Positions 20,714 through 63,983 of a stretch of 64,000 bases of DNA are shown here, piece by piece. The stretch lies in the NCBI RefSeq assembly GCF_001078595.1, contig NZ_LFTY01000002.1, positions 2,785,773 through 2,849,772 of the forward strand, read 5' to 3'. Made by a program: the position numbers and the translations under genes. The notes beneath the pieces are model-generated. The model was not told the origin of the DNA. It did not search any database and saw only the letters and a program-made list of their open reading frames with translations. Source of the stretch: Candidatus Rhodobacter oscarellae. Lineage in GTDB: Bacteria > Pseudomonadota > Alphaproteobacteria > Rhodobacterales > Rhodobacteraceae. Position 1 is the first letter of the stretch, and each line of letters opens with the position of its first letter.

Positions 20714-20758
20714 CAAAAATCTTGGAAGATTTTTGTCAAGAATTTTGGAAAATTCTTG
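20714..20758. repeat. Paired-palindrome element in a divergent promoter region
   Basis: Palindrome 1 spans 20714-20735 (arms CAAAAATCTT and AAGATTTTTG, centre GG). Palindrome 2 spans 20737-20758 (arms CAAGAATTTT and AAAATTCTTG, centre GG). One base separates them. It occupies half of the 91-bp space between the divergent starts of sfsA and the MoaB/CinA-like gene, so it cannot be a terminator for either. Confidence 0.85.
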
Positions 20759-31745: not shown

Positions 31746-31849
31746 GTCTGCATTTGTCGGTGGCACCGCAGGAAATGCAAGCGACAAGCGCGGCTGTGAG
31801 CGGAGCGCTGCGCTCCCCTCGGCCCTCCCCAGCGGACCCTGGCGCGACA

Positions 31850-31991
31850 CAATTTTCTTGCAAGAAAATTGCGAAACTCTTGCAAGAGTTTCTTCGGCGC
31901 GAGCCGCAATGATCCGCTATGCGCACCCTCTCACCGGACGCGGGCCCAACTTTCCTTGGAAGGAAAGTGCAAATCTCTTGCAAGAGATTTG
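31850..31991. repeat. 142-bp composite repeat with four palindromes (copy 1)
   Basis: Order: palindrome 31850-31871 (arms CAATTTTCTTG / CAAGAAAATTG), one base, palindrome 31873-31892 (GAAACTCTTG / CAAGAGTTTC). Then a 56-base core follows at 31893-31948. Then come palindrome 31949-31968 (ACTTTCCTT / AAGGAAAGT, centre GG), one base, and palindrome 31970-31991 (CAAATCTCTTG / CAAGAGATTTG). An inverted copy of the whole unit is at 35097-35238. The core contains AATGATCCGC and ATGCGCACCCTCTCACCGGA, nearly unchanged between copies. Confidence 0.9.
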
Positions 31992-34000: not shown

Positions 34001-35023
34001 ATGGCCGATTTCACCCCCCGAGTTTTCTCCGGCATGCAGCCCTCTGGGGATCTGCACCTTGGCAATTACCTTGGGGCGATGAAGCGCTGGGTGGATATGC
34101 AGAACGCGGGCACGCATGAGACGGTCTATTGCATGGTGGACCTGCATGCGATCACGGTCTGGCAGGACCCCAAGGCGCTCGCCGCGGCCACGCGCGAGCT
34201 CTGCGCGGGCTACATCGCGGCGGGCATCGACCCCGAGCGCTCGATCCTGATCAACCAATCCGCCGTGCCCGAGCACGCGCAGCTGGCCTGGGTCTTCAAC
34301 TGCGTCGCCCGGATGGGCTGGATGCAGCGCATGACCCAGTGGAAGGACAAGGCCGGCAAGAACGCGCAGAACGCCTCTTTGGGGCTCTTCGCCTACCCCG
34401 CGCTGATGGCCGCCGACATACTGGTCTACCACGCCACCCATGTGCCCGTGGGCGACGACCAGAAGCAGCATCTGGAGCTGACCCGCGACATCGCGATCAA
34501 GTTCAACCATGATTTCGGCGTGGATTTCTTCCCCGAGACCGAGCCGGTGATCGAGGGCGCGGCCACCCGCGTGATGTCCCTGCGGGACGGGTCCAAGAAG
34601 ATGTCCAAGAGCGATCCCAGCGATATGAGCCGGATCAATATGACCGACGACGCGGACGCGATCGCGAACAAGATCCGCAAGGCGCGCACGGATCCAGAGC
34701 CGCTGCCGTCGGAATATGTGGGCCTGGCCGGGCGCCCCGAGGCGCGCAACCTGGTGAACATCATGGCCGCGCTGTCCGGGCGCAGCGTGGATCAGGTGAT
34801 GTCGGATGTGGGCGGGATGCAGTTCGGGCAGTTCAAGCCGCAGCTGGCGGAGCTGGCGGCGGAGACGATGGGCCCCATCGGCGCCGAGATGTCCCGGCTG
34901 ATGGATGACCAGGCCGAGATCGACCGGATCCTCGCCCGCGGCGCCGAGCGCGCCCGCGAGATCACCGCCCCAATCCTGGCAAAGACCTACGAGATCGTCG
35001 GCATGGTGGGCTCTGGCGCTTAA
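34001..35023 (+). CDS. trpS: Tryptophan--tRNA ligase
   Basis: This class I synthetase charges tRNA-Trp. The 340-residue protein has the HIGH-like [11 protein letters not shown] at residues 16-26, the tryptophan-pocket region [32 protein letters not shown] (partly quoted) and KMSKSDPSD near 200-208. The AAQQQVMSD-type C-terminal helices follow. The length is normal for bacterial TrpRS. It is flanked on both sides by inverted copies of the composite palindrome element. Confidence 0.96.
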
Positions 35024-35044
35024 CCGCTCTTTTCGAGAGCGGTT
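35021..35044 (+). terminator. Possible trpS terminator hairpin
   Basis: Arms AACCGCTCT (35021-35029) and AGAGCGGTT (35035-35043) overlap the trpS stop codon and are followed by only a short T run, so termination may be weak. Confidence 0.5.
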
Positions 35045-35522
35045 TGCTTGGTCAGTCCTTCGCAGCTCTAAGGCCCAGATCGCCCATTGGACGCGCCAAA
35101 TCTCTTGCAAGAGATTTGCACTTTCCTTCAAAGGAAAGTTGGGGCCGCGTCCGGTGAGAGGGTGCGCATGGCGGATCATTGCGGCGCGCGCCAAAGAAAC
35201 TCTTACAAGAGTTTCGCAATTTTCTTGCAAGAAAATTGTGGCGCACCAACGCCCGCTCCGGCCCAAATCTCACATCCCTTTCAACAAGCAAGTTCCAGCA
35301 CCGTGTCAGCCCCGCGCGCATCGCGGCACGCCGCCCGCGCCGCCGGTCGCCGCGTCACAAAACTGTGGCCTCGCCGCGATAGATTGTGGCCATCGTCCCG
35401 CGATGGAATCTTCCCCACCCCATCGCATACTCGACCCCTGGCCTGCCCGCGGCCGGGGGTCACTTCGCCTGGACCTTCCCCTCCCGCGCGCCTAGTCTCG
35501 CACCAAACAGGAGGATCACCGC
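35024..35522. other. Gene-free region between trpS and the BCAT-like gene
   Basis: This 499-base stretch holds the second composite palindrome repeat (35097-35238). The remainder to 35522 is GC-rich, without a credible gene. The Shine-Dalgarno AGGAGGA of the downstream gene is at about 35510-35516. Confidence 0.7.
35097..35238. repeat. 142-bp composite repeat with four palindromes (copy 2, inverted)
   Basis: The reverse complement of this segment matches 31850-31991 along its whole length. Palindromes are at 35097-35118, 35120-35139, 35196-35215 and 35217-35238, each pair separated by one base. Centre changes (TTGGAA to TTTGAA, TTGCAA to TTGTAA) fall in the loops, so the stems are kept. The core at 35140-35195 differs from copy 1 at only a few positions. 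Confidence 0.9.
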
Positions 35523-51264: not shown

Positions 51265-51307
51265 CAATTTTCTTGCAAGAAAATTGCCGGAATTTTCCAA
51301 AATTCCG
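51265..51307. repeat. Paired-palindrome element between phnJ and the phnK remnant
   Basis: Palindrome 51265-51286 (arms CAATTTTCTTG / CAAGAAAATTG), one base, then palindrome 51288-51307 (arms CGGAATTTT / AAAATTCCG, centre CC). The first palindrome is identical to those in both composite repeats. It lies 11 bp after the phnJ stop, inside a run of co-directional genes. Confidence 0.88.
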
Positions 51308-51323
51308 CCACCGCGAGAAACAG

Positions 51324-51467
51324 ATGACACCTCTTCTATCCGCTAAAGACATCGCCAAGGCCTACGGTCGGCAAATCGGCTGCGCTGACGTTTCCTTTGA
51401 TCTCTCTCCTGGTGAGGCCATCGGCCGCCTGCGCGCACCCGTTGCCTTTTCTGGAGACGAGGCATGA
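51324..51467 (+). pseudogene. Duplicated 5' fragment of phnK
   Basis: Bases 51324-51421 match 52027-52124, the start of phnK, with 6 differences in 98 (about 94%). The frame gives MTPLLSAKDIAKAYGRQIGC and then departs at residue 33 into unrelated codons, ending at TGA 51467. The stop overlaps the ATG of the phosphatase gene. It has no Walker A and cannot be an ATPase. It reads as the scar of an insertion or recombination. Confidence 0.88.
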
Positions 51468-52030
51468 AGGTGATCTTCCTGACCCATGCCGAGGTGATCA
51501 TCGACCCTGACACCCCCGTGCCGGACTGGCCTTTGAACGACCTGGGGCGCGCGCGGCATGCCCGCTTTGCCACCGATCCGGCCTTGCAAAGCGTCGGCAC
51601 GATCTTTTGCTCTGCCGAGCGCAAGGCACGTGATGCGGCCGAGATCACCGGCGCGGTCCTGGGCGTAGCGCCACGCATCCGCCCGGCTCTGGGTGAGAAT
51701 GACCGCAGCGCCACGGGTTACCTGCCCGGACCCGAATTCGAGGCCACAGCCGACCTGTTCTTTGCCAATCCGCAAGACAGCATTCGCGGATGGGAACGCG
51801 CGGTGGATGCGCAGGCGCGCATCGTCACTGCCGTCCGGGAGGCGCTGGCGGAGCCGCGCTCTGAGGGCGACGTTCTTATCGTGGCGCATGGCGGTGTGGC
51901 CACACTGCTGCGCTGCCATCTGGCAGGGATCCCGATCTCACGCGCGCAGGATCAATCGGGCGGCGGCGGCAACTGGTATGCTTTCGCCCCGGACATGACC
52001 TCCGCGGCAACCGAATGGAGGGCCATATGA
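51464..52030 (+). CDS. Histidine phosphatase superfamily protein in the phn operon
   Basis: The 188-residue protein has the histidine-phosphatase fold pattern: MKVIFLTHAEV with His8, the CSAERKARDAAEITGAVLG segment near residues 47-65, and the second histidine in VLIVAHGGVATLLRCHL (His142). The usual RHG/RHE opening is changed to THAE, so the first phosphate-binding Arg is lost. It lies between a partial and a full phnK, both in phase, and its end overlaps phnK. A role in handling phosphoribosyl intermediates is inference from position. Confidence 0.78.
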   Translation: MKVIFLTHAEVIIDPDTPVPDWPLNDLGRARHARFATDPALQSVGTIFCSAERKARDAAEITGAVLGVAPRIRPALGENDRSATGYLPGPEFEATADLFFANPQDSIRGWERAVDAQARIVTAVREALAEPRSEGDVLIVAHGGVATLLRCHLAGIPISRAQDQSGGGGNWYAFAPDMTSAATEWRAI

Positions 52031-52797
52031 CACCTCTTCTATCCGTCAAAAACATCGCCAAGACCTACGGTCGGCAAATCGGCTGCGCTGACGTTTCCTT
52101 TGATCTCTTTCCTGGTGAGGTCATGGGCATCGTCGGCGAGAGCGGCTCGGGCAAGTCAACCCTCTTGAATTGCCTGGCCGGGCACCTCGCCCCTGATCGG
52201 GGCGAGGTTCTCTTTGACACCCGCGCCGAGGGACTTCGGGACACTGTGACCATGTCCGAACCTGCGCGGCGGATGCTGGCGCGCACCGACTGGGCCTTTG
52301 TACATCAGAACCCGCGCGACGGGCTGCGCATGGGCGTCTCGGCGGGCGGCAATGTGGGCGAGCGGCTGATGGCCGTGGGCGCGCGGCATTACGGCGAGAT
52401 CCGCGAGACCGCGCTGGACTGGCTGGACCAGGTCGAGATCGACGGCGCGCGCGTGGACGACCGGCCCTCGACCTTCTCCGGCGGGATGCAGCAGCGGCTG
52501 CAGATCGCGCGCAACCTGGTGACGGGGCCAAGGCTGGTCTTCATGGACGAGCCCACCGGCGGCCTGGACGTCTCGGTGCAGGCGCGCCTGCTTGACCTCT
52601 TGCGGGGCCTTGTGCGGCGGCTGGGGCTCTCGGCGATCATCGTCACCCATGACCTCGCCGTGGTGCGCCTGCTGGCGGACCGGCTGATGGTGATGAAATC
52701 CGGCCACGTGGTCGAATCCGGCCTGACGGATCAGGTGCTGGACGACCCGCAGCACGCCTACACCCAATTGCTGGTGTCGAGCGTGTTGCAGGTGTGA
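52027..52797 (+). CDS. phnK: C-P lyase ATP-binding subunit PhnK
   Basis: PhnK is the ABC-type ATPase of the C-P lyase complex. The 256-residue protein has Walker A GESGSGKST near residues 38-46, the signature TFSGGMQQRLQIARNLVTGPRLVFMDEPTGGLDVS (quoted in part: TFSGGMQQRLQIARNL), and ITHDLAVVRLLAD. The ATG at 52027 follows GGAGGG. The N-terminal 33 codons are duplicated upstream at 51324. Confidence 0.95.
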   Translation: MTPLLSVKNIAKTYGRQIGCADVSFDLFPGEVMGIVGESGSGKSTLLNCLAGHLAPDRGEVLFDTRAEGLRDTVTMSEPARRMLARTDWAFVHQNPRDGLRMGVSAGGNVGERLMAVGARHYGEIRETALDWLDQVEIDGARVDDRPSTFSGGMQQRLQIARNLVTGPRLVFMDEPTGGLDVSVQARLLDLLRGLVRRLGLSAIIVTHDLAVVRLLADRLMVMKSGHVVESGLTDQVLDDPQHAYTQLLVSSVLQV

Positions 52798-55229: not shown

Positions 55230-55237
55230 GCGCGGCC

Positions 55238-55280
55238 ACTTTCCTTGCAAGGAAAGTGCAAATCTCTTGGAAGAGATTTG
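55238..55280. repeat. Paired-palindrome element between convergent phnM and purD
   Basis: Palindrome 55238-55257 (arms ACTTTCCTTG / CAAGGAAAGT), one base, palindrome 55259-55280 (arms CAAATCTCTT / AAGAGATTTG, centre GG). These are the second half of the composite repeat and lie between two convergent genes, where a two-way terminator could act. Confidence 0.88.
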
Positions 55281-63938: not shown

Positions 63939-63983
63939 CGAAATCCTCAAAGGATTTCGATTCGCAATCCTTTAAGGATTGCG
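63939..63983. repeat. Paired-palindrome element at the window end
   Basis: Palindrome 63939-63959 (arms CGAAATCCT / AGGATTTCG, centre CAA) and palindrome 63963-63983 (arms CGCAATCCTT / AAGGATTGCG, centre T), three bases apart. The spacer is longer than the one base seen in the other copies. Confidence 0.75.

Follow-up and report, generated by a model that had tools for sequence, protein, structure and literature searches.

A four-palindrome composite and its inverted copy

The window analysed here, a 64,000-nucleotide stretch of the Candidatus Rhodobacter oscarellae genome, carries a 142-bp composite element at positions 31850-31991, in the gap between divergent genes. A first-pass annotation of the window had described two pairs of palindromes, each pair split by one base, around a 56-base core; we found palindromes P1 to P4 exactly as placed, with C31872 separating P1 from P2 and G31969 separating P3 from P4. 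The repeat unit is larger than 142 bp: in many copies, imperfect inverted repeats of ~30 bp lie outside the palindromes (TTTTGGCCTGGAGCGGGC...GCCCGCTCCAGGCCAAAA). The features of the composite and of its inverted copy are as follows, in window coordinates.

31820-31849, + strand: outer inverted repeat, left side, degenerate at 31850 (40-copy alignment, consensus TTTTGGCCTGGAGCGG...TTGGCGCG)
31850-31871, + strand: P1, 22-bp perfect palindrome with a fixed GC centre
31873-31892, + strand: P2, 20-bp perfect palindrome with a free centre dinucleotide
31893-31948, + strand: core, 56 bp, kept in length while its sequence drifts (copies differ pairwise by 30%, and some have an unrelated core, again 56-57 bp long)
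31949-31968, + strand: P3, 20-bp palindrome of 9 pairs round a GG centre, centre dinucleotide free
31970-31991, + strand: P4, 22-bp perfect palindrome, centre nearly always GC; 24 bp with G31969 and C31992
31992-32020, + strand: outer inverted repeat, right side, degenerate at 31850 (40-copy alignment)
35097-35118, - strand: P4 of the inverted copy
35120-35139, - strand: P3 of the inverted copy
35140-35195, - strand: core of the inverted copy, 56 bp
35196-35215, - strand: P2 of the inverted copy
35217-35238, - strand: P1 of the inverted copy

The inverted copy at 35097-35238 keeps every arm, and its palindromes differ from those at 31850 only in the centres of P2 and P3, bearing out the earlier description of intact stems with changes in the central bases. 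Its core mismatches the 31850 core at few of the 56 positions; judged by sequence, the two copies are close relatives, hence their similar cores. Each palindrome is predicted to fold as RNA at -5.9 to -8.6 kcal/mol, and the predicted fold of the whole composite is strong on both strands (z -4.7 and -5.2). The gene upstream of the inverted composite, trpS, already has a perfect hairpin of its own at 35022-35044.

Genome-wide copies and constraint on the arms

Searching the genome for exact composites (P2 and P3 arms exact, with a gap of 45-70 bp) yielded 96, of which 46 are forward and 50 reverse; a reversed-pattern control yielded 0. The 4.0-Mb replicon holds 85 of them and the 1.04-Mb replicon 11. 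Tandem AT-rich palindrome pairs number 62 in 864 kb of the host genome, whereas 184 kb of Markov-shuffled sequence contained none; they are not a chance product.

A profile search of the same 864 kb recovered 22 copies above 200 bits, with a clean gap to everything else and very few decayed composites. Given that gap, the divergence sample is not biased to intact arms. Pairwise divergence among these copies is 0-0.9% in the arms, compared with 30% in the core and 37-40% in the outer ends, which argues that selection or recognition acts on the arms. Centre dinucleotides diverge by 23-29% in P2 and P3 and by 0-4% in P1 and P4. Gene conversion, considered as a source of arm uniformity, was rejected; it would not spare the variable centre dinucleotides of P2 and P3.

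About six copies combine an unrelated core with a nearly constant core length. In L263-L268 the core is unrelated to the consensus yet measures 56-57 bp (63 in L267), P2 and P3 are unchanged, P4 is mostly unchanged, and P1 is altered on both arms together, from CAATTTTC to CCAATTTC or CAAATCTC. Covariation, which the first-pass annotation had proposed as a check on folded structure, bore the structure out: across 14 copies, 97% of cells in the four-hairpin structure are paired and 13 are double-change cells, a count reached by 0 of 500 shuffles, with slid controls giving 0-1, although few independent events underlie these numbers. The annotation had read the pattern as selection on structure combined with a conserved, sequence-specific core. 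For the palindromes this stands, given their near-invariant arms and compensated changes; for the core it does not, as only length persists, including in copies whose core sequence is unrelated. The near constancy of the core that it had noted applies to the 31850 and 35097 copies but not genome-wide.

Placement at gene ends

Genes were called by a simple codon-score method, and gene distances are approximate. Among the roughly 64 composites with gene context, 34 lie in convergent, 25 in co-directional and 5 in divergent gaps, against 69 (16%), 284 and 90, respectively, of 443 background intergenic gaps. The convergent enrichment has a Fisher p of about 1e-10 (run on 35/65, one duplicate included). 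Composites occur in either orientation relative to the genes.

The window also contains solitary tandem pairs:

20714-20758, no strand assigned: pair built on other arms, lying between divergent genes and breaking the gene-end rule
51265-51307, + strand: P1-type palindrome plus CGGAATTTTCCAAAATTCCG, 11 bp behind the phnJ stop
55237-55280, no strand assigned: P3-like plus P4-type palindrome, in a convergent gap, 7 and 30 bp from the gene ends
63939-63983, no strand assigned: pair built on other arms, close to the edge of the window

At loci L110 and L131, two other Rhodobacteraceae also carry a pair between phnJ and phnK, so that it is kept there in three genomes, with differing second palindromes. 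Solitary pairs across Rhodobacteraceae, gathered separately in two sets, lie at a median distance of about 8 bp from the nearest upstream stop, many of them inside tight co-directional or operon gaps only a few bases behind the stop codon. In the flanks examined, no consistent U/T-run followed the hairpins, so that the intrinsic-terminator combination of GC-rich stem and U-run was not seen; matches from a terminator scanner within composites mostly count T of the neighbouring palindrome. Classical intrinsic terminators were ruled out by this lack of a consistent U-run.

Tandem palindromes across Rhodobacteraceae

The P1 22-mer, its centre left free, was scanned in 85,000 genomes. By title, the 76 loci among the matches listed all belong to Rhodobacteraceae, barring the loci of one MAG. 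That MAG, titled Exiguobacterium profundum (L083 and other CP059262.1 loci), contains many Rhodobacteraceae-type palindrome pairs, and its label is probably wrong. An adjacent second palindrome, with highly varied arms, accompanies P1 at 70 of the 76 loci among the matches listed; in a second set, collected with another palindrome, 46 of 55 loci have a partner. The second-set palindrome is present in 23 of 296 family genomes, and the tandem-pair habit is therefore patchy; 100 kb from each of eight relatives showed tandem clusters in G036 only. The arm consensus is restricted beyond what pairing demands: CARRWWYYTT-NN-AARRWWYYTG.

The composite itself was absent from the other Rhodobacteraceae and class-level genomes searched, where only partial pair matches appeared, and from the plasmids and phages searched. 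A P2 scan of viral contigs gave scattered matches; in three IMG/VR contigs (L167, L177 and L201), P2-like palindromes stand in regular 58-bp arrays that are possibly CRISPR-like or tandem repeats. The first-pass annotation had looked to related genomes for further copies: those searched lack the composite, which is abundant in its host genome; what the family shares is the palindrome pairs. The finding is broader than the annotation supposed.

G036, which belongs to another genus, contains seven four-palindrome arrays (L251-L257) with GC-rich arms unrelated to the composite and no long core. The centre is fixed as CG in their outer palindromes and free in the inner ones, the same rule as in the composite, and compensated changes occur in one inner and one outer palindrome. 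Six of the seven lie in convergent gaps, 4-55 bp from both stops and most of them nearly stop to stop. These arrays are an independent case of four-palindrome organisation. Triple arrays with differing arms are found in three Rhodobacteraceae genomes (L103, L121 and L145), just upstream of what seems to be the same gene.

Possible mobility

The composite has the terminal inverted repeats of a MITE; these are imperfect, about 16-30 bp long and degenerate in many copies. A further dispersed family, about 310 bp long and with ~21 copies in the 864-kb sample, has the same ends; it shows conserved internal stems and variable loops of its own and also lies near gene 3' ends. Examples include L045:15575-15906, L049:8354-8685 and L051:1349-1680. 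From its sequence, the composite unit looks MITE-like, at about 200 bp.

A direct repeat of at least 5 bp, as left by target-site duplication, flanked 0 of 32 copies (null mean 0.8), and no longer element with the composite's ends, at up to 2 mismatches, appeared as an autonomous parent. The REP-associated Y1/RAYT transposase (PF01797), found in control genomes, is absent from the host genome, and of eight other genomes with pairs seven, G036 included, lack it too; as it is missing from the host, it was rejected as the mobiliser. The earlier suggestion of a small mobile element thus gains from the dispersal and the terminal repeats shared with a second family, and loses from the missing target-site duplication and Y1/RAYT.

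Comparison with known systems

BIMEs are dispersed intergenic palindromes combined in larger mosaics that favour gene 3' ends and convergent gaps. The composite shares this preference, and the REP/BIME mosaics of enterobacteria, which have been proposed to stabilise mRNA 3' ends or to bind gyrase, resemble it as palindrome mosaics; REP sequence composition and the binding of gyrase or IHF also characterise BIMEs. The mosaics differ in that the composite is unrelated in sequence, consists of tandem perfect palindromes rather than imperfect REPs, and has no RAYT in its host genome. An earlier suggestion of a BIME-type site therefore holds for dispersal and siting at gene 3' ends and fails for Y1/RAYT. 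RIME and ABC mosaic elements of Rhizobium and Sinorhizobium are, like the composite, alphaproteobacterial intergenic palindrome mosaics, a likeness drawn by description; they are not known to include family-wide tandem palindromes behind stop codons.

Bacterial MITEs of the ERIC or RU type are also non-coding, about 200 bp long, multicopy and bounded by terminal inverted repeats, and the composite's ends are common to a second family; it differs from them in showing neither target-site duplication nor an identified transposase, and in having internal palindromes far more conserved than its ends. Bidirectional intrinsic terminators likewise place hairpins between convergent genes and serve both strands, whereas the composite and pairs have no consistent U-tract, have paired or quadruple palindromes and also occur within operons, as at phnJ-phnK. 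REPINs of Pseudomonas and others occur in high copy number; their palindromic ends are invariant, their spacers keep chiefly their length, and they show compensatory changes (PMC3116915). Conserved palindromic ends round a spacer of conserved length are present here too; REPINs, however, are two REPs with a RAYT, whereas the composite has four palindromes, outer terminal repeats and no RAYT. It is closest in kind to BIMEs and REPINs, yet is better kept apart from the REP, BIME and REPIN families: RAYT was not found in its host genome, and its sequence is unrelated to that of REPs. Searches of the open literature gave no description of these palindromes, and tandem hairpins behind stop codons are apparently an undescribed habit of Rhodobacteraceae as a whole.

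A proposed role and its alternatives

Our preferred reading, which we judge evenly poised between right and wrong, is that the composite is a gene-end tandem-hairpin cassette that acts at mRNA 3' ends on both strands and is housed in a MITE-like dispersed unit. Its working parts would be the two pairs of adjacent 20-22 bp palindromes, with the core merely fixing their distance. Behind a stop codon, each palindrome would fold into a hairpin of 8-10 bp in the transcript of either strand; the hairpins may mark the 3' terminus of the preceding message and shield it from 3'-5' exonucleases, and possibly take part in transcript-end formation. Owing to their palindromic symmetry they could serve both strands, for instance between convergent genes. 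The module takes the form of a simple pair or triple in most Rhodobacteraceae carriers, and in Candidatus Rhodobacter oscarellae two pairs would have been carried by transposition to about 100 places on the ~200-bp MITE-like unit.

Position at gene ends, dependence on pairing and two-strand symmetry fit hairpins in mRNA 3' ends. The presence of pairs in tight operon gaps, together with the lack of a U-run, suggests that 3'-end protection or cistron separation is likelier than classical termination. A comparison of sense-strand G.U with A.C mismatches, meant to separate action as RNA from action as DNA, gave 14:3 in the exploratory set but was not replicated in the independent set, at 2:3. The arms are more uniform than pairing needs, which hints at sequence recognition, and their restricted alphabet leaves room for a binding protein. 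Counter to a gene-end role, the 31850 composite and the 20714 pair are flanked by divergent genes, a setting in which one would not expect a 3' end, and trpS, ahead of the inverted composite, already has its hairpin.

A purely selfish REPIN- or MITE-like element, with arms recognised by a recombinase, a core that matters for its length and gene ends as tolerated insertion sites, is possible if doubtful. The ~96 dispersed copies and the terminal repeats common to the 310-bp family favour it, as do that family's similar gene-end siting, conserved stems and variable loops and the like pattern of REPINs. It accounts poorly for the scarcity of decayed composites, for pairs kept at orthologous positions and for a convergent share above that of the 310-bp family (34/64 vs 5/21, p 0.02), and neither Y1/RAYT in the host genome, nor a target-site duplication, nor, in the terminal-repeat search, an autonomous partner was seen. 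For E. coli BIMEs, absorbing positive supercoils between convergent genes is a proposed role, and a double-stranded DNA site of that sort at gene ends, bound by a dyad-binding protein or gyrase or forming a cruciform, could explain why arm sequences are restricted beyond pairing, P1 and P4 centres are fixed, a spacing of 55-58 bp is kept and convergent placement occurs in both orientations. We consider it unlikely: four different palindromes per element and many arm pairs family-wide are unlike the site of one protein, and many pairs sit in tight co-directional gaps a few bases from the stop. The structured RNA raised by the first-pass annotation fares worst, being highly improbable as a stand-alone sRNA gene family. 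The strong fold predicted on both strands would suit it, but the palindromes by themselves account for that fold, an Rfam 15 covariance-model scan of the window gave 0 matches, the core drifts and orientation to genes is random.

Extending the hairpin-cassette reading to the family, we tentatively entertain a Rhodobacteraceae gene-boundary system, in which a shared arm grammar behind stops might be read by a dedicated RNA- or DNA-binding factor, with compensated arm evolution and independent four-palindrome cassettes. How mRNA ends are defined and protected is poorly known in GC-rich alphaproteobacteria with few classical terminators. A hairpin module behind stops that has been retained at an orthologous position, has multiplied independently in two genera and reaches ~100 copies in one genome offers an experimental handle, and palindromes kept while the intervening sequence drifts make a good case for parting host function from selfish spread.

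The phnJ-phnK region

Directly behind phnJ, a stop-broken 5' fragment of phnK starts at 51324 (region 51324-52797), followed by a histidine phosphatase-like gene, judged by eye, at 51464-52030 and an apparently intact phnK from 52015. The insertion between phnJ and the intact phnK apparently left a second copy of the phnK start.
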